From: Herbidospora cretacea | Lineage (GTDB): Bacteria; Actinomycetota; Actinomycetes; Streptosporangiales; Streptosporangiaceae | Assembly (NCBI RefSeq): GCF_001570605.1 | Contig: NZ_BBXG01000016.1 | Location: forward strand, 62,001-126,000 | DNA: 64,000 nucleotides | Reading direction: 5' to 3' | In this document: piece after piece, positions 54,044 through 62,294 of the stretch | Numbering within the stretch: the first letter of the stretch is position 1 | Layout of the letters: every line of letters begins with the position of its first letter | Program-made: the position numbers and the translations under genes | Notes under the pieces: model-generated | What the model saw: the letters and a program-made list of their open reading frames with translations, nothing else | What the model was told of the DNA's origin: nothing | Database searches by the model: none

Positions 54044-55459
54044 TCAGGCGCCTTCGAGGGGCAGCAGCACCCGGAAGTTGGTCCGTCCCGGCTCCGAGGT
54101 GACCCGGATGTCCCCGTGGTGCTTCTTCACGATGATCCGGTAGGAGATGTCCAGCCCGAGCCCCGTCCCCTCGCCGACCGCCTTGGTCGTGAAGAACGGC
54201 TCGAAGATGCGCGGCCGGACCTCCGGCGGGATGCCGTGCCCGGTGTCCTGGACGTCGACCGCCACGTTCTCGCCGTCGCGGCAGGTCGCGATCGTCAGGG
54301 TGCCCGATCCCTCCATGGCGCCGATCGCGTTGTCGATCAGGTTGGTCCACACCTGGTTGAGCTCGGCGGCGTAGGCGGGGACGGGGGGCAGGGTGCGGTC
54401 GTAGTCCTTGACGACCCGCACCCCCTCGGGGATCTTCGCCTGGAGCATGGTCAGGGTCGCGTCGAGCAGGTCATGCACGTCGACCGTCTGGTGCGGGGCG
54501 CGGTCGAGCTGCGAATACTGCTTGGCGGCGGAGACGAGACCGGAGATCCGGGACACGGCGTCGTCGATCTCGCCCATGAGGAGCTCGGTGTCGATCGTGT
54601 ACGTCAGCCACCGGATCGCCCCCTCCAGGTTCCCCTCCCCGACGCACTCCTGGACGGTCTCCAGCCACTCCGAGTGGATCCCCCCGGCGACGAGGGTGGG
54701 CGCGATGTCCCACGACCCGGCGATGTCGTGGTCGTCGAGCCAGTCGGCCAGGGCGTCCTCGGCGTCGGAGGTCTGGAGGGCGGTCAGCTCGGGGGCGGTG
54801 GCGGCCTGCTTGACGGCGAGTTCCTGGAGCTCGACCAGCTTGTGCAGCCGGCCACCGTCGATCCTGCCGTCGGCGATCATGCCGAGCTTGTGCCGCATCC
54901 CGGCCACTCGCTCGCGCAGGATCGAGGTGGCCCGGACGGCCGCCGCGGCGGGGTTGTTGAGCTCGTGGGTGAGCCCGGCCGACAGCGCGCCGAGGGCGAG
55001 CAGGCGCTCCCGCTCGCCGACCGCCGTCTGGGTGGCGCGCATGCCGACGAACAGGCCTTCGAGCAGGTGCATCGCCATCGGGAACCACTGGCGGGTCCAC
55101 TCGGCGAACGAGTCGGCCGGGATCTCGTAGACGGTGACGTCGGTCAGGGCCACCATCGAGTTGTTGTACTCCTGGGTGACCTCCGGGTTCATGTACGCCT
55201 GCGTCGCACCGCCGTAGGCACCGCGCTGGTCGCTGCGGGTGAACTCGACGTCGTCGCCGCGGACGCGCCGGGTCAGCGTGATCGTGCCTTCGAGGAGGAC
55301 GACGAAGCAGGTCGCGGGCTGGCCCTCCTCGTAGACGCGCGTGCCCGCCGGGTAGGGGATCACCCGGCCGCAGTCGGCGATCAGCCGGAGCTGGTCGTCG
55401 TTGAGGGACTCGAACAGGAACAGGCCGCGGAGGTCGTCCGGGGTCAGAAGGTCGCTCAT
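54044..55459 (-). CDS. Sensor histidine kinase with N-terminal cyclic-nucleotide-binding domain
   Basis: 471 residues, no membrane segment. CNB-like domain at 10-125 (YPAGTRVYEEGQPATCFVVLLEGTI-type strands). Phospho-acceptor His165 in LSAGLTHELNNPAAAA, then a long helical linker. HATPase at about 345-470 has the N box LNQVWTNLIDNAIGAM, G1 DTGHGIPP and G2 GTGLGLDIS. The ATG overlaps the stop of the response-regulator/reductase fusion (ATGA), so kinase and regulator are a pair. A ligand such as cNMP, or redox input through the CNB domain, is possible. Confidence 0.9.
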   Translation of the reverse strand: MSDLLTPDDLRGLFLFESLNDDQLRLIADCGRVIPYPAGTRVYEEGQPATCFVVLLEGTITLTRRVRGDDVEFTRSDQRGAYGGATQAYMNPEVTQEYNNSMVALTDVTVYEIPADSFAEWTRQWFPMAMHLLEGLFVGMRATQTAVGERERLLALGALSAGLTHELNNPAAAAVRATSILRERVAGMRHKLGMIADGRIDGGRLHKLVELQELAVKQAATAPELTALQTSDAEDALADWLDDHDIAGSWDIAPTLVAGGIHSEWLETVQECVGEGNLEGAIRWLTYTIDTELLMGEIDDAVSRISGLVSAAKQYSQLDRAPHQTVDVHDLLDATLTMLQAKIPEGVRVVKDYDRTLPPVPAYAAELNQVWTNLIDNAIGAMEGSGTLTIATCRDGENVAVDVQDTGHGIPPEVRPRIFEPFFTTKAVGEGTGLGLDISYRIIVKKHHGDIRVTSEPGRTNFRVLLPLEGA

Positions 55460-57123
55460 TGCGCCTCCAGGTAACGGTGGATGAGGGAGACGGCCATGGC
55501 GCCCTCGCCGACGGCGGAGGCCACGCGTTTGACGGAGTCGGAGCGCACGTCGCCCGCCGCGAAGACACCCGGCATGCTGCTCTCCAGGTGGTAGGGGTCG
55601 CGGGGGAGCGCCCAGCCCGACGGCCGCCGGCCGCCCGACAGCAGGTCGGGGCCGGTCAGCACGAAGCCGTGCTGGTCGCGTTCGATGACGGAGTCGAGCC
55701 AGGCCGTGCGGGGCTCGGCGCCGATGAAGATGAAGCACCACGTCGTCTCGGCGGTCCTGATCTCGCCGGTACGGGTGTCGCGCAGCGTCAGCCGTTCGAG
55801 GTGGTCGTCGCCCTCCGCCTGGCAGATCTCCGTGTTCGGGTGGACCTGGATCGACGGGTGGGAGGCGATCTGCTTGATCAGGTAGCTCGACATCGAGCGT
55901 TCGAGGCTGTCGCCGCGGATCAGGATGTGCACGCGGGCGGCGTACCGGGAGAAGTAGACCGCCGCCTGGCCCGCGGAGTTGGCGCCGCCGACGATGTAGA
56001 CGTCCTGGTCGAGGCACGAGGGGGCCTCGGTCGAGGCGGAGCCGTAGAAGACGCCCCGGCCGGTGAAGCCCGCCAGCCCGGGGGCCTGGAGCATCCGGTA
56101 GGAGACGCCGGTCGCCAGCACCACGGTGTGGGCGGCGATCGAGGTGCCGTCGTCGAAGCGCAGCACCCGGGTCGAGCCGCCCGCCTCCAGCGCGACCGCC
56201 TCGCGGGCGCTCAGCAGTTCGGTGCCGAACTTCAGCGCCTGCCGGCGGGCCCGCTCGGTCAGCTGCGCGCCGCTCACCCCGTCGGGGAAGCCCAGGTAGT
56301 TCTCGATCCGGCTGCTCTGCCCGGCCTGCCCGCCGGTCGCCCGCTGTTCGATCAGGACGGTGCGCAGCCCCTCGGACGCCCCGTAGACCGCCGCGCCCAG
56401 CCCGGCCGGACCGGCGCCCACGACGACCAGGTCGTAGAAGTCGCTGGCCGGGGTGGTCGTCAGGCCCACGTGGGGAGCCAGGTCGATCTCCGACGGCTGC
56501 ACCAGGGACTTGCCGTCGGACGTCACCACCAGCGGCACGTCGTTCTCGCTCAGCCCGGCCGCCGTGAGCAGCCTGCGCCCCTCGGGGTCGTCGGCCAGCA
56601 GCCAGCGGTAGGACACCAGGTTCCGCGCTAGGAAGTCGCGCACGGCGTAGGACTCCGCCGACCAGCGGTGCCCCACCACGCGGATCTCGGTCACCGGGCG
56701 GTCAGGGGTGGCGATCCAGGCGTCCAGAAGGGCGTCGACCACCGGGTAGAGCTTCTCCTCCGGCGGGTTCCACGGCTTGAGCAAATAGTGATCGACGTCG
56801 ACCAGGTTGATGGCGTCGATGGCCGCCTCGGTGTCGGCGTAGGCGGTCAAAAGAATTCGCCTGGCCAGCGGAAAGAGGTCCATGGCGGCTTCAAGGAACT
56901 GGATGCCGTTCATCTGCGGCATCCGGTAGTCGGCCACCAGCACCGCCACCTGTTCGCCGCGCAGTTTGATCTCGCGCAGCGCCTCAAGGGCCGACTCACC
57001 CGAGTCGGCCCGCACGATGCGGTAGCGGTCGCCGTACTTGCGGCGCAGGTCACGGGAGACCGCGCGGGAGACCGCGGGGTCGTCGTCCACCGTCAGAATC
57101 GCCGGATTCGCCATATGCCCCAT
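55456..57123 (-). CDS. Response regulator fused to a thioredoxin-reductase-like flavoprotein lacking CxxC
   Basis: 555 residues. Receiver 8-135 with DDD at 13-15, phospho-acceptor Asp65 (VLVADYRMPQMNG), Thr93 and Lys116. A glutaredoxin-like segment at about 143-212 has no Cys at the active-site position (VVGHRWSAESYAVRDFL). The TrxR-like domain at 228-550 has VVVGAGPAGLGAAVYG, IVGGANSAGQAAVY and GVFAAGDVRSDSVKR. Where TrxR has CxxC, this protein has Gly-Ser-Ala-Ser (361-364). The FAD site looks intact, so output may be a flavin reaction not using thiols. ATG 57114 is an alternative start. Confidence 0.9.
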   Translation of the reverse strand: MGHMANPAILTVDDDPAVSRAVSRDLRRKYGDRYRIVRADSGESALEALREIKLRGEQVAVLVADYRMPQMNGIQFLEAAMDLFPLARRILLTAYADTEAAIDAINLVDVDHYLLKPWNPPEEKLYPVVDALLDAWIATPDRPVTEIRVVGHRWSAESYAVRDFLARNLVSYRWLLADDPEGRRLLTAAGLSENDVPLVVTSDGKSLVQPSEIDLAPHVGLTTTPASDFYDLVVVGAGPAGLGAAVYGASEGLRTVLIEQRATGGQAGQSSRIENYLGFPDGVSGAQLTERARRQALKFGTELLSAREAVALEAGGSTRVLRFDDGTSIAAHTVVLATGVSYRMLQAPGLAGFTGRGVFYGSASTEAPSCLDQDVYIVGGANSAGQAAVYFSRYAARVHILIRGDSLERSMSSYLIKQIASHPSIQVHPNTEICQAEGDDHLERLTLRDTRTGEIRTAETTWCFIFIGAEPRTAWLDSVIERDQHGFVLTGPDLLSGGRRPSGWALPRDPYHLESSMPGVFAAGDVRSDSVKRVASAVGEGAMAVSLIHRYLEAQ

Positions 57124-57205
57124 AAAAACACGCTCGGAGGGTCATTGCTTCCAACGTACCTTCCAAGGCGTTTGATCAGGCCGCTGACCTGGGGATTCTT
57201 CGCAA

Positions 57206-58426
57206 ATGGAGCGCGTGCTGAGATTCCCCGAGACGGAGCTGCCGGGCGAGGTGCACTTCGTCGTGATCGGCGAGAGGCCGGCTGGGCAGACGATGGGCGA
57301 ATTCCGGCCCACGGGGGAGATCCCGGTGCCGGACGACGTCGAGCTGGCCTACGTCGCCACGACGACCGAACGGCTCGACGAGGTGCCGGAGGTGACCGGC
57401 CTGCGGCTGAGCGCCGCCGGCGACGACGACCTGCGCCTGATCGCCAAGCGGTCGGAGCTGCGGGACCTGGCCGTGACGGGACGCTTCACCGACGAGGGGG
57501 TCCGGGCCCTCCAGAGCCTCACCACCCTGGAGAGCCTGGAGCTCTGGTCGCCGCACATCACCGGCGACGTGCCGCTGCCCGTCCACAGCCCGCTGATCAA
57601 GGTCAAGCTGGGCGGCTCCTCGCTCACCGACGCCGCCTTCCCCCACCTCGCCCGCACCTCGGCCGCGGTGGTCGGCGTCTCCGGAGGCGAGGTGCGCGGC
57701 CACGGCCTGGGCGTCCTCGGCGGCATGTCCACGCTCCGTTACCTGCGCCTGGGCAGCGAGAACATCGAGCCCGGCTGCCTGTGGCGGCTCGGCACGAGCG
57801 AGTCGCTGGCCATCCTGTCGCTGGCCGGGCCGGTCGACTGCGAGGCGGTGCTGTCGTTCGCGCCGCCCCTGAAGGAGATCGACCTCGACCACGTCTCCCG
57901 GGCCGACTGCGCCCGCCTGCTGTTCCACGGCCTGACCGTCAACGGCCTGTCGGGGCCGCCCCGGCTGGCCGACGCGTACGCGCGGATGCTCACCGCGCCC
58001 GACCGCCCGAGCGGCATCGCGCCCCGCCGCCGGGTCGTCACCGGGGAGCGCGACCTCGCCTCCCTGGTCATGGGCCCCGCGCCGGTGCTCCTCGTCTTCA
58101 CCCGCCGCGACTGCCTGGCCAGCGAGTGGATCGCACCGGTGATCGACCGCATCGTCGCCGAGTACGACGACGAGCTGATCGGCGCGTTCGCCGACGTCGA
58201 CACCGCGATCGGGGCGGCCGCGTCCATGAACGTCGGCCGCACCCCGACCGTCCTGCTGACCCGCAAGGGCGAGGAACTGCTGCGGCTGCCCGGGATCAGG
58301 TCCCACGCCGAGCTGATCCGCCGGGTGACCGGCACGCTCGGGCTGCCCATGCCGGGAGAGAGGCTGTTCCCCGCCGGAGAGCCGGGCCGGGAGTCCACAG
58401 GTGAGCCGCTGCTGGGCTCCGCCTGA
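57206..58426 (+). CDS. Leucine-rich-like protein with C-terminal thioredoxin fold
   Basis: 406 residues. Residues about 60-230 show spaced Leu patterns (ELRDLAVTG, TLESLELWS, TLRYLRLGS, SLAILSLAG, PLKEIDLDH), like irregular leucine-rich repeats. Residues about 281-377 form a thioredoxin-like fold: PVLLVFTRRDCLASEW with a single Cys303 (CxxS), DVDTAIGAAASMNVGRTPTVLL with cis-Pro347. No signal peptide. Divergent from the reductase-like fusion across 82 bases. Possibly a redox or stress partner of that pair; no named family. Confidence 0.75.
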   Translation: MERVLRFPETELPGEVHFVVIGERPAGQTMGEFRPTGEIPVPDDVELAYVATTTERLDEVPEVTGLRLSAAGDDDLRLIAKRSELRDLAVTGRFTDEGVRALQSLTTLESLELWSPHITGDVPLPVHSPLIKVKLGGSSLTDAAFPHLARTSAAVVGVSGGEVRGHGLGVLGGMSTLRYLRLGSENIEPGCLWRLGTSESLAILSLAGPVDCEAVLSFAPPLKEIDLDHVSRADCARLLFHGLTVNGLSGPPRLADAYARMLTAPDRPSGIAPRRRVVTGERDLASLVMGPAPVLLVFTRRDCLASEWIAPVIDRIVAEYDDELIGAFADVDTAIGAAASMNVGRTPTVLLTRKGEELLRLPGIRSHAELIRRVTGTLGLPMPGERLFPAGEPGRESTGEPLLGSA

Positions 58427-58439
58427 GCGGCTCGGCCGC

Positions 58440-58811
58440 TCAGATCTCCATCTTGTCTTCGATGGCCCGCAGGTGGTGGCGGGCCATCGCCAGGTTGGCC
58501 CGGTTCCGGTCGAGGGCCAGGTAGAGGAACAGGCCCTTGCCGCCGCGGCCGGTGATCGGGCGGATGATGTGGTACTGGCCGGACAGCGTGATGAGGATGT
58601 CCTCGATCGCGTCCTTCAGCCCCAGGCTGTCCATCGTGCGGAGCTTGGCCTTGACGACCTCGGTGTTGCCGGCCCCGGCGATCTGCAGGTCGAGGTCCTT
58701 GGACCCGCCGAGCACACCCAGGCTCATGCCGCTGTTGTAGTCGACCACGGCGGCGCCGATAGCGCCGTCGATCGCCATCATCTCCTTGAGAGAGATGTCC
58801 ATGTTCGCCAT
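58440..58811 (-). CDS. Roadblock/LC7 domain protein 3
   Basis: 123 residues, one roadblock domain: SLKEMMAIDGAIGAAVVDYNSGMSLG at the N-terminus and FLYLALDRNRANLAMARHHL at the end. Such proteins usually act as partners or GAPs of small Ras-like GTPases. It resembles the protein at 60072-60443 (same length, same RANLA-ARxxL end). Last gene of a four-gene operon, 13 bases after the second roadblock gene. Confidence 0.88.
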   Translation of the reverse strand: MANMDISLKEMMAIDGAIGAAVVDYNSGMSLGVLGGSKDLDLQIAGAGNTEVVKAKLRTMDSLGLKDAIEDILITLSGQYHIIRPITGRGGKGLFLYLALDRNRANLAMARHHLRAIEDKMEI

Positions 58812-58824
58812 GTCGGGTCTCCTG

Positions 58825-59238
58825 TCATTCGCGTTCGACGATGGCGGCGATCTTCGCCGCCGTCTTCCTGCCCTCGATCCGCAGCAGCCCGAGGTTGGCC
58901 CCTGGGACGGCCAGCACGGTGAGGACGAGCTTGGGACCCGCGGCGTAGTGGGCGGTGAAGCCGCGGGTGGCGGAGATCAGGGTCTCCTCCAGTTCGCCGA
59001 TCCTGGTCAGGTCGGTCATCCGGCGGCTCATCGAGAGCACGGCCGAGGTGAGCGCCGCGGTCTGGTCGACGTTCTCGGCCAGGTCGGCCGTGACGAGCAT
59101 GCCGTCGACGGTGCACGTGAGGACGCCGGTGATCTCGTTCGTGCGGCCTCTGAGGAGCAGCATCTCCTCGTGGATCTCGCGGCGCAGGTCCATCGGGATG
59201 CCCTTTCCGGCCCGTTTGAGCCACGGGCGCGTGATCAC
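58825..59238 (-). CDS. Roadblock/LC7 domain protein 2 (MglB/CvnB-like)
   Basis: 137 residues from the GTG overlapping the DUF4388 stop (GTGA), with GGAGG 7 bases upstream. ATG 59193 (MDLRREIHEE) is a good alternative with AAAGGG. The domain runs EITGVLTCTVDGMLVTADLAE, then AALTSAVLSMSRRMTDL and LTVLAVPGANLGLLRIEGRKTA. It is closer to the classical CvnB/MglB type than its two neighbours. Confidence 0.85.
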   Translation of the reverse strand: MITRPWLKRAGKGIPMDLRREIHEEMLLLRGRTNEITGVLTCTVDGMLVTADLAENVDQTAALTSAVLSMSRRMTDLTRIGELEETLISATRGFTAHYAAGPKLVLTVLAVPGANLGLLRIEGRKTAAKIAAIVERE

Positions 59239-60068
59239 TGGAAGGCCTCCAGCGCGTTCCGCAGCCTGATGAGCAGATTCACGTCCGTCGGGTCTCCGCT
59301 GATCTGGGGGAAGGACGACTGCGCCGGCCGGCCACCCCCGCCCCCGGTCGCCACCCGGGGGGCCGAACCCGCCACGCGCTTGGGGAGGTCCGGCGGTTTC
59401 TCGCGGGCCGGCGACTCCGCGCACTCCAGCAGCCCCGCCGCGGCCATCTCGCGGACCGCGAGCAGAGTCGGGTACGCCGGCCGCCCGATCTTCCTGGCCA
59501 GCTCGACGGGCGTGGTGTCCGCGTCCGCGTTGAGGAGGATCTCCCACTGGAGGGCGGTCAGCATCACGTGCCGGGAGCGGATGCGCCGCACCGGGACCAC
59601 CGGATGGCTGTCGAGTTCGGCCGATGGCCAGGCGCGGTCCAACCGGGCCCTCCTGCGGTGACATTCCCGGAACAGGCCCGGCACGTCGAAGAACCAGTGG
59701 ATCCCCAGCCAGTGCCGGTCCCCCTCGCGGAATCTGGGCTTCGGCACGTTCGCGCCGAACAGGAAGAAGGAGGCGTCCAGGGTCGCCCCCAGGACGCACA
59801 GCTGGAGCTCGCCCCGGCTGAGCACGCCCCGCCGGACCAGCATCTCGCCGCCGTCGGCGGTGGCAGCCGTGGTCTGGCGGGCCGTCTTCACGCCGTGGGA
59901 GGTGATCCGGCCGGAGGCCGTCAGCAGCTCCTCCACCGTCGGCGTGCGGGCGCACTCCACGTAACAGACCCGGCCCCGGCTGAGGTAGACGGTGCCGCTC
60001 CGGCCGGCCTTCAGGGCGCCCGTCGCCTTGCTCTCCGCCAGTTCGGAGAGCATGTCGTCGATCGGCAC
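59235..60068 (-). CDS. DUF4388 (PATAN-like) domain protein
   Basis: 277 residues. The N-terminal DUF4388 (about 5-130) has LAESKATGALKAGRSGTVYLSRGRVCYVECARTPT-type strands. A middle region has SRHVMLTALQWEILLNADADTTPVELARKIGRP, which looks like a winged helix (about 165-220). The C-terminus has a Gly-rich linker and VNLLIRLRNALEAF. GTG start. DUF4388 proteins often occur with roadblock proteins in signalling operons. Sits between roadblock genes 1 and 2. Confidence 0.85.
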   Translation of the reverse strand: MPIDDMLSELAESKATGALKAGRSGTVYLSRGRVCYVECARTPTVEELLTASGRITSHGVKTARQTTAATADGGEMLVRRGVLSRGELQLCVLGATLDASFFLFGANVPKPRFREGDRHWLGIHWFFDVPGLFRECHRRRARLDRAWPSAELDSHPVVPVRRIRSRHVMLTALQWEILLNADADTTPVELARKIGRPAYPTLLAVREMAAAGLLECAESPAREKPPDLPKRVAGSAPRVATGGGGGRPAQSSFPQISGDPTDVNLLIRLRNALEAFQ

Positions 60069-60071
60069 CGG

Positions 60072-60443
60072 TCACGACGCGATCAGTTCGTGGGAGATGC
60101 TGTCGAGGCGCCGCCGCGCCAGGGCCAGGTTCGCCCGGTCGCGGTCGAGCCGCACGCAGATCAGCAGGGGGCCGTCCCACATCGTCTCCATCGGCTTGAT
60201 GAGCTGGTAGCCGTGGTCGGTGGTGATGATCAGATCGTCGATCCGGATCGTTCCATCGGGTGAGGACAGGGCCAGTCCGTCGAGCGTGGCGCGGAAGGTC
60301 TCGCTGAGCCCGATCGCCGACCGCTCGGGGTCGGGCAGGCCCTCCGTCGCGAGCGCGGTGCCGCTGGTGTGGTCGACCAGGATGGCGCCGAGCGCTCCCG
60401 GGATGGCCATCGCCTCGGACAGGCAGTCTTCGATGCCGATCAC
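60072..60443 (-). CDS. Roadblock/LC7 domain protein 1
   Basis: 123 residues: CLSEAMAIPGALGAILVDHTSGTALA, GYQLIKPMETMWDGPLLICVRLDRDRANLALARRRL. First gene of the operon 60443-58440; the DUF4388 gene starts 4 bases after its stop. GTG start with GAGGAG upstream. The 170-base gap upstream of it towards the DUF523 gene carries the promoters of both directions; no clear motif is seen. Confidence 0.87.
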   Translation of the reverse strand: MIGIEDCLSEAMAIPGALGAILVDHTSGTALATEGLPDPERSAIGLSETFRATLDGLALSSPDGTIRIDDLIITTDHGYQLIKPMETMWDGPLLICVRLDRDRANLALARRRLDSISHELIAS

Positions 60444-60613: not shown

Positions 60614-61099
60614 GTGGAACGCATTCTCGTGAGCGCCTGCCTGATGGGCCGCCGCGTCCGCTACGACGGCGCGGCCAAGACCAGCGACGACGCCGTCCTC
60701 GCAGGCTGGCGGGCCGAAGGGCGGCTGATCCCGTTCTGCCCCGAGGTCGAGGGCGGCCTGCCGGTGCCCCGCCCACCGGCCGAGATCGAGGGCGGCGCGG
60801 GCGGCGCGGCGGTGCTCGCCGGCACGGCCCGCATCCTCACCCCCGAGGGGGCCGACGTCACCGCGCACTTCCTCGAAGGGGCCCGCCGGTGCCTCGCGGT
60901 GGCGCGCTCGGCCGGCGTCCGGATCGCGATCCTCAAGGAGGGCAGCCCGTCGTGCGGCTCCCTGCGCGTCCACGACGGCACCTTCAGCGGCCGGTCGGTC
61001 CCCGGCGCGGGCGTGACGGCCGCCCTCCTGGCCGCCGAGGGCGTCGAGGTCTTCGGCGAGGACCGCATCGCCGACGCGGTCAGAGCTCTGAGCCGATGA
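60614..61099 (+). CDS. DUF523 family protein
   Basis: 161 residues from GTG 60614, the usual family start (ERILVSACLMGRRVRYDG). Conserved Cys positions are in VSACL, FCPEVEGGLPVPRPP and KEGSPSCGS. The C-terminus VFGEDRIADAV is typical. The Cys arrangement suggests a metal or Fe-S site; function unknown. GTG 60587 is an in-frame alternative. Overlaps the DUF4032 gene tail to tail by 20 bases. Confidence 0.85.
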   Translation: MERILVSACLMGRRVRYDGAAKTSDDAVLAGWRAEGRLIPFCPEVEGGLPVPRPPAEIEGGAGGAAVLAGTARILTPEGADVTAHFLEGARRCLAVARSAGVRIAILKEGSPSCGSLRVHDGTFSGRSVPGAGVTAALLAAEGVEVFGEDRIADAVRALSR

Positions 61100-62294
61100 T
61101 CGCCTTCTCGTCGGGGCGGTGGACCAGGACGTTGTCGATGTAGCTGCGGACGGCCGCCGCCAGGCCGACGTCCTTGCCGGCCGCCTCCGACAGGAACCAG
61201 CGGTGCTCCAGCACCTCGTGGAACAGCTCCGCGCGTTCGAGCTTGCGGTGCAGCTCCGGCGGGATCGCGCTGACCACCGGCTGGTAGACCTCGGCGAGCC
61301 AGCGGTGGGCCACTATCGCCTCGTCCTCGTGACGCAGGCCGTGGGTGACGGTGAAGGAGTCGAGGTCGTTGAGCAGGCGGCGGGCCTGGTTCTCCTCGAC
61401 GTCCAGGCCGGTGAGGCGGAGCAGGCGGCGCTGGTGGTGGCCGGCGTCGACGACCTTGGGGCGGACGATCAGGCGGCCGGTGCCGGCCTTGCGGCGGACC
61501 ATCATCTCGGCCACGTCGAAGCCGAGGGTGTTGAGGCGGCGGATGCGCTGGTCGACCTTGTGCCAGTCGACCTCCTCGATGATCTCGTCGGAGTTGAGCT
61601 CGGTCCACAGGCGGTGGTAGCGCTCGACGATCTGCTCGGCGAACAGCAGCGGGTCTATCGAGGGGTGCAGCAGGCCGCCCGCCTCCAGGTCGAGCAGTTC
61701 GCCGTAGATGTTGATGTGGGCGACCTCGATGTCGTGGTGGCGCTGGCCCTCGCTGATCATCGGGTGCAGCTCGCCGGTCTCGGCGTCGACCAGGTAGGCG
61801 GCGAACGCGCCCGCGTCGCGGCGGAACAGGGTGTTGGACAGCGAGCAGTCGCCCCAGTAGAACCCGGTCAGGTGCAGCCGGACCAGCAGCACGGCCAGGG
61901 CGTCGAGCAGCCGCTCCAGGGTCTCCGGGCGCAGCGTGCCCGACAGCACGGCCCGGTAGGGCAGCGAATACTGCAGATGGCTGGTGATCAGGGCGGAGTC
62001 GAGGGTCTCGCCGGTCTTCGACTCGCGGCCGGTCACCACGGCCACCGGTTCGACCGACGGGGTGTCGAGGCGGTTCAGGTCCCAGAGCAGGCGGTATTCA
62101 CGCTTCGCGTAGCGCTCGCTGATCTCCTTGATCGCGTACACGGTGCCGTTGATGCGGGTGAACCGCACGACGTGGCGGGAGATGCCGCGGGGGAGGGCGA
62201 CCAGGCGGTGCTCCGGCCACTCTTCGAGAGGGACGTCCCAGGGGAGCCGGATGAGATCGGGATCCGAAGGTGCGCCGGTCATCTGAAGTGGCAC
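61080..62294 (-). CDS. DUF4032 kinase-like protein
   Basis: 404 residues. A protein-kinase-like core: TVYAIKEISERYAKREY (Lys), GFYWGDCSLSNTLFRRD (catalytic Asp/Asn, about 155) and AYLVDAETGE (metal Asp, about 180). The C-terminal DUF4032 region follows (about 210-400, with RRKAGTGRLIVRPKVVDAGHH). HRD is replaced by W-G-D. The family is widespread in actinomycetes; its substrate is unknown. AGGAGC precedes the GTG. Confidence 0.88.
   Translation of the reverse strand: MPLQMTGAPSDPDLIRLPWDVPLEEWPEHRLVALPRGISRHVVRFTRINGTVYAIKEISERYAKREYRLLWDLNRLDTPSVEPVAVVTGRESKTGETLDSALITSHLQYSLPYRAVLSGTLRPETLERLLDALAVLLVRLHLTGFYWGDCSLSNTLFRRDAGAFAAYLVDAETGELHPMISEGQRHHDIEVAHINIYGELLDLEAGGLLHPSIDPLLFAEQIVERYHRLWTELNSDEIIEEVDWHKVDQRIRRLNTLGFDVAEMMVRRKAGTGRLIVRPKVVDAGHHQRRLLRLTGLDVEENQARRLLNDLDSFTVTHGLRHEDEAIVAHRWLAEVYQPVVSAIPPELHRKLERAELFHEVLEHRWFLSEAAGKDVGLAAAVRSYIDNVLVHRPDEKAIIGSEL

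Follow-up and report, generated by a model that had tools for sequence, protein, structure and literature searches.

In Herbidospora cretacea we found a histidine kinase encoded together with a response regulator that is fused to a flavoprotein, and gene linkage and conserved residues give good evidence that the two are cognate partners in a two-component system whose output has an enzyme fold. The flavoprotein part resembles thioredoxin reductase (TrxR), and the loss of the TrxR dithiol throughout its class, combined with a conserved E-x3-C motif, is not ordinary. Also out of the ordinary are the thioredoxin gene next to a sister class of flavoproteins and the lineage-specific leucine-rich repeat/thioredoxin-like protein (LRR/Trx) encoded by the divergent neighbouring gene, whose lone Cys changes position between lineages. 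Our leading explanation, to which we give a little less than an even chance, is that a phosphorylation-controlled NAD(P)H flavoprotein engages thioredoxin-fold partners without a classical disulfide relay, and that LRR/Trx serves as an adaptor.

The three genes lie in the window, the whole stretch of 64,000 nucleotides that was analysed. The kinase gene (54044–55459, − strand) encodes a soluble protein of 471 aa and was recognized from Pfam domains, motifs and its linkage to the fusion. The fusion gene (55456–57123, − strand) encodes 555 aa, with a receiver, a glutaredoxin (Grx)-like and a TrxR-like part, and overlaps the kinase gene by the four bases of an ATGA stop/start (55456–55459, − strand), as the initial annotation had read from the sequence. 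The LRR/Trx gene (57206–58426, + strand; 406 aa) is divergent from the fusion, an intergenic region of 82 bp (57124–57205) separating the two starts. The nearest named relatives of the source genome are H. yilanensis, H. solisilvae and H. galbida, with a fusion 97% identical. An ordinary trxB(CATC)-trxA pair (L003) is also encoded in this genome, so the fusion is an extra.

Other features of the surroundings were a DUF4032/Kdo-kinase-like gene 4 kb upstream on the fusion’s strand (61080–62294), found near the fusion also in Streptomyces loci and in Acrocarpospora macrocephala (14 of 80 named loci), and, at 58440–60443, a DUF4388-like protein (59235–60068) between two 123-aa proteins without a Pfam match. 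The DUF4388-like gene lay close to the fusion in Acrocarpospora as well as in Herbidospora. No DosR-type palindromes were found near the locus within the window. The anti-phage family library gave no defence-family match for kinase, fusion or LRR/Trx, and the phage-family library none for LRR/Trx. The best PHROG of the fusion was a family labelled ribonucleotide reductase, which matched the TrxR-like part only.

All boxes of a sensor histidine kinase were present in the kinase: H (phospho-acceptor His165, 54965–54967, − strand, from the H-box motif), N (NLIDNA), G1 (DTGHGIP), F (FEPFFTTK) and G2 (GTGLGL), with a HATPase_c domain at 54053–54367 (− strand, Pfam E = 1e-25). HisKA was matched partly, over 29 residues (E = 0.085). 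The DHp appeared to be split (54570–54910): its second helix follows the H-box helix only after about 110 residues, a layout kept in relatives. The N-terminal cyclic-nucleotide-binding-type domain (55097–55357, − strand) was recognized by cNMP_binding (PF00027, E = 3e-10), and to this extent the domain named in the initial annotation was recovered. The phosphate-binding cassette for cAMP/cGMP was not: the canonical contact Glu and Arg are missing, GAYGGATQAY...QEYNNS replacing FGE...R-A. Judged by these residues, canonical binding of cAMP by this domain is improbable.

The fusion’s receiver (56758–57102, − strand; Response_reg PF00072, E = 6e-14) is intact. It has the acidic pocket, and in family alignments the phospho-acceptor Asp65 (56929–56931, − strand), Thr93 and Lys116 are invariant. 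Among 80 named actinobacterial loci, the kinase gene was directly downstream of the fusion in 78; in one of the two exceptions it was 3.9 kb off, and in the other the contig ended before it. The fusion stop was ATGA or GTGA in 76 of the 80. The adjacency, the shared stop/start and the conserved receiver residues and kinase boxes together argue for a cognate pair, and the proposal of a two-component pair with an enzyme as output was supported, the output having an enzyme fold that was matched by Pyr_redox_2 (E = 5e-34).

This TrxR-like FAD/NAD(P) module (residues 229–553; 55465–56439, − strand) was recognized by Pyr_redox_2 and Foldseek. As had been claimed, it keeps the FAD motif GAGPAG (56398–56421, − strand) and the NAD(P) motif GGANSA (55966–55989, − strand), both invariant in the family alignment of fusion relatives. 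Its predicted fold was nearest to the flavin-reducing TrxR of Lactococcus (5mh4, TMt 0.86), and the E. coli TrxR-thioredoxin complex entry 1f6m was among the Foldseek matches (TMt 0.81). The position of the TrxR dithiol, CATC, is taken in the alignment by G361-S-A-S364 (56032–56043, − strand). The row of E. coli TrxB served as a landmark for the CATC position only. The second site without cysteines, S155-A-E-S158 (56650–56661, − strand, by alignment), is at the CxxC position of the Grx/Trx-like domain (residues 147–220; 56464–56685, − strand). This domain was assigned from its predicted secondary-structure order only (beta-alpha-beta-alpha-beta-beta-alpha); the topology agrees with the glutaredoxin-like site of the initial annotation, and a sequence search of the domain against the PDB gave chance matches only.

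Both CxxC sites were lost in about 116 of 116 sequences of the receiver (REC) type, GSAS- or GAA-type residues replacing CATC and SxxS the Grx-like CxxC. No sequence aligned had a CxxC at the TrxR dithiol position, whether of the REC type, of the divergent REC2 class or of the CNB class, which has a cyclic-nucleotide-type domain. Going by these alignments, the missing dithiols are a family trait of REC-type fusions. With both sites lost, the fusion cannot run the normal TrxR dithiol relay, and since the FAD and NAD(P) motifs and the fold are kept without the redox-active CxxC that defines a TrxR, what remains is the look of an NAD(P)H flavoprotein. The claim that the thiol sites lack cysteines extended to the whole family, and it had overlooked a single Cys just past the lost CxxC, Cys370 of the E-x3-C motif (56014–56016, − strand, by alignment). 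This residue was kept in 115/116 REC, 6/6 REC2 and 23/25 CNB sequences, with Glu366 nearly invariant alongside it in all three classes. Members from Deinococcus that we examined had Val or Thr in its place. By secondary structure prediction, Cys370 closes a short helix that precedes the NAD(P) strand, a position unlike that of the TrxR dithiol.

The LRR/Trx protein was described in the initial annotation as a leucine-rich region with a CxxS thioredoxin fold, and both halves were confirmed. The leucine-rich region (about 57338–57940, + strand) was modelled by AF2 as a solenoid (pLDDT mostly 80–95 over residues ~40–140) with LRR proteins as top Foldseek matches; Pfam LRR_14 matched with E = 0.19. 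The Trx domain (residues 279–378; 58040–58339, + strand) was found by profile against PDB thioredoxins (E = 2e-15), keeps the cis-Pro (P347, in TPT/VPT) and is homologous to actinobacterial thioredoxins by profile comparison, though its single-sequence PF00085 score of 23.2 is slightly below the cut-off of 23.5. Because AF2 pLDDT was about 30 over the Trx part, we base no structural claim on it. The active site lacks a CxxC: it is C303-L-A-S306 in the window (58112–58123, + strand, by alignment), with CLAS in Herbidospora and S-x-x-C in Acrocarpospora. The lone Cys is thus not at a conserved position, a different one being kept in each genus, a pattern that dithiol catalysis or a fixed nucleophile would hardly explain and that makes the suggested role of the CxxS protein as a simple electron acceptor unlikely. 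The residues suggest instead that the protein acts in docking or scaffolding, which the leucine-rich solenoid would fit.

The Herbidospora and Acrocarpospora versions of LRR/Trx are only 49% identical. The dN/dS was 0.24–0.31 within Herbidospora and 0.37–0.41 within Acrocarpospora, compared with ~0.08 for the fusion, so that LRR/Trx evolves about three times faster (~0.27 vs 0.08). It is under purifying selection, constrained but loosely. The A. catenulata copy was broken by an in-frame TAG (L087 6909–6913; same genome as L013), and the copies of the other Acrocarpospora genomes were intact. The intergenic DNA was 94–95% identical between Herbidospora species, with fourfold sites at 77–79% in the fusion and 70–74% in LRR/Trx, which is what a divergent control region under constraint would show. 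Read on the − strand, this region (57124–57205) holds the direct repeat TTGGAAG-N5-TTGGAAG, a possible operator by its sequence. The repeat was found in the window and in two of three other Herbidospora species, one differing in the first copy.

Of the three genes proposed to occur together, LRR/Trx was present in 12 of 12 genomes of two genera (Herbidospora 7/7, Acrocarpospora 5/5), adjacent to and divergent from the fusion wherever checked. Beyond these genera the association did not hold, so that the initial annotation’s own ground for refutation, a lack of co-conservation, applies by half: among 68 genera sampled, LRR/Trx was present in 2 and a fusion relative in 49. LRR/Trx was found in none of the other sampled genera of the family, order, class or phylum (partial samples), and a scan of 346 genomes from across the phylum recovered it from the source genome only. 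Candidate relatives outside the two genera were rejected, being ordinary thioredoxins matched by the Trx domain only, plus LRR-only genes in one genus of the same family. The latter are two tandem genes (L167 1363–2999), homologous to the LRR half and without a Trx domain, on a different contig from that genome’s fusion. In the fusion tree the holders of LRR/Trx form one clade (support 98/90), which indicates one gain rather than many independent associations; two related genera and one gain amount to a single independent event.

In other lineages the place beside the fusion was taken by different genes: a CBS-BON protein in Microbispora and Planotetraspora, and a universal stress protein plus DUF4032 in Streptomyces. 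Four genera, including the closest relatives of the LRR/Trx clade, had a gene for a membrane-anchored DUF2231-Rieske protein in the vicinity of the fusion: directly upstream in Thermocatellispora, and close by in Spongiactinospora and two more genera (L050 8951–9883; L089 7011–7943). Apart from the Rieske protein, ferredoxin neighbours found by motif were discarded as chance matches. NAD kinase was also rejected as a conserved neighbour, its 31 matches coming partly from a query that overran into another kinase-gene frame; the cases that look real were in Microbispora and Planotetraspora only. A small UBP-type zinc-finger gene often came after the kinase gene in other lineages. It overlapped or followed the kinase in Streptomyces and Tsukamurella, and in Nocardia lay between trxA and the CNB-TrxR gene (L196 7134–7484; L197 7131–7484; L202 2277–2543). 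Both relatives of this gene in the source genome were on other contigs.

Except for LRR/Trx, no thioredoxin gene was found beside a REC-type fusion in the other loci. The sister class differs in this respect. The source genome encodes a paralog, CNB-TrxR, with a cyclic-nucleotide-type domain in place of the receiver (L070, G000:C13, 7257–9402); its gene is immediately preceded, on the same strand, by that of a Trx2-like thioredoxin, which has WCGPC and N-terminal CxxC pairs. A thioredoxin gene was in this position and orientation in 17 of 23 loci of the family, the source genome included, and 15 of those 17 had a recognized CxxC. Upstream of the CNB-TrxR gene on a plasmid of Nocardia farcinica there is likewise a thioredoxin gene. 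CNB-TrxR shares with the fusion the Grx-like/TrxR-like core, the lost TrxR dithiol and E-x3-C, but has the cyclic-nucleotide-type domain rather than a receiver, no kinase gene, and an ordinary CxxC thioredoxin adjoining. By analogy, this neighbour supports a putative thioredoxin connection of the fusion class. The Trx domain of LRR/Trx shows no particular closeness to the thioredoxin of the sister class.

Our preferred mechanism would involve phosphotransfer, flavin activity and partner docking. The kinase would sense an intracellular cue via its cyclic-nucleotide-type domain and phosphorylate Asp65 of the fusion, and phosphorylation would alter the state of the TrxR-like FAD/NAD(P)H module. 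Since no dithiol relay is possible, the module would act either as a flavoprotein driven by NAD(P)H, with an acceptor that is not a dithiol, or as a redox reporter based on its flavin. It may dock thioredoxin-fold partners, an ordinary thioredoxin in the sister class and, in Herbidospora and Acrocarpospora, LRR/Trx, whose role would most likely be that of an adaptor or a docking partner rather than redox catalysis. Several findings speak against this mechanism: LRR/Trx joined the pair in a single gain, evolves faster than the fusion and is broken in A. catenulata; REC-type fusions of the other loci had no thioredoxin gene beside them; and the LRR/Trx thioredoxin domain is not markedly similar to that of the sister class.

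The simplest alternative, nearly as likely as this mechanism, is that LRR/Trx is a mere neighbour, a lineage-specific gene that settled once beside a conserved pair and has an unrelated job. The presence in 2 of 68 genera, the absence from the 346 phylum genomes other than the source, the single gain, the CBS-BON, universal stress or Rieske proteins at the same place elsewhere, the faster evolution and the one broken copy all fit such a settler. It would be less expected, however, that the gene stays adjacent and divergent in both genera despite 49% identity, that the intergenic DNA is more conserved than synonymous sites, and that the sister class has thioredoxin partners. The Rieske neighbour keeps a ferredoxin-reductase-like output a live rival: the module could be a phosphorylation-controlled ferredoxin/Rieske-type reductase of the TrxR-fold ferredoxin-NADP reductase (FNR) type. 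TrxR-fold FNRs naturally lack the dithiol and are among the fusion’s sequence matches, and the Rieske genera include the nearest relatives of the LRR/Trx clade. We consider this unlikely, as TrxR is closer than FNR both in sequence (E = 3e-54 vs 8e-23 against solved structures) and in fold, and most loci have no Rieske or ferredoxin gene.

It is quite unlikely that Cys370 performs persulfide/polysulfide or monothiol chemistry, the fusion then being a stress enzyme that reduces sulfane sulfur. The near invariance of Cys370 and Glu366 in the REC and CNB classes would agree with it, as would the finding that the Streptomyces coelicolor regulator SCO7298, called trxB3, is induced by acid shock and, with or without AdpA, by polysulfide (PMC9952706, PMC2631018). 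However, induction is not activity, SCO7298 is likened to the fusion by its listing as a TrxB-type regulator, the Deinococcus members examined have Val or Thr at the Cys370 position, and the predicted position is unlike that of the TrxR dithiol. A broader version of the preferred mechanism, which we hold to be doubtful, is that the REC- and CNB-linked dithiol-free TrxR-like proteins are an unrecognised thioredoxin-partnered flavin switch, whose phosphorylated or ligand-bound form would control Trx-fold partners without disulfide transfer; Herbidospora and Acrocarpospora would have swapped the redox-active thioredoxin for a leucine-rich adaptor with a degenerate active site.

Annotation names the class thioredoxin reductase, and in expression work SCO7298 goes by ‘trxB3’, yet the defining dithiol is absent from all REC-type sequences examined. 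If the module still binds NAD(P)H and FAD under phosphorylation control, it would be a two-component output whose direct target is cellular redox instead of DNA. In the sister class, the adjoining thioredoxin gene offers a simple, testable partner, and LRR/Trx a lineage-specific variant for telling adaptor from redox function.

A ‘TrxB’ class of response regulators appears in the census of S. coelicolor, where SCO7298 and the kinase SCO7297 form a pair (PMC9739842), and REC-TrxR fusions were mentioned for mycobacteria and Heimdallarchaeota (PMC5847659). The fusion belongs to this class, sharing with SCO7298 a receiver, a TrxR-like output on the same chain and an adjacent kinase gene. In the literature the module is taken as a thioredoxin reductase, whereas we found E-x3-C conserved and the dithiol absent in the REC-type sequences; SCO7298 presumably lacks it too, judging from Streptomyces relatives. 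Our literature search found no study of the mechanism of a TrxB-class pair and no test of SCO7298’s own activity, and the earlier view of a known fusion type without an established role was roughly right. With low-Mr TrxR (TIGR01292) the fusion shares the FAD and NAD(P) modules and the fold, but it has GSAS for CATC, added REC and Grx-like domains, and a score of 217.8 bits, below the curated cut-off of 343. AhpF (Foldseek rank 2–4) likewise begins with a thioredoxin fold and continues with a TrxR-like module, with a CxxC in both parts, whereas the fusion has lost both and gained a receiver. YumC-type TrxR-fold ferredoxin-NADP reductases share the fold without CxxC, but the fusion is nearer to TrxR in sequence, has REC and Grx-like domains and no conserved ferredoxin neighbour. 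LRR/Trx aligns with thioredoxin (PF00085) over the full domain and keeps the cis-Pro, but has DCLAS or D/E-S-x-x-C for WCGPC and an LRR fused in front. The kinase-fusion pair is a known class, ordinary as such, and its LRR/Trx neighbour, thought new in the initial annotation, is apparently undescribed and, among the sampled genera, particular to Herbidospora and Acrocarpospora.
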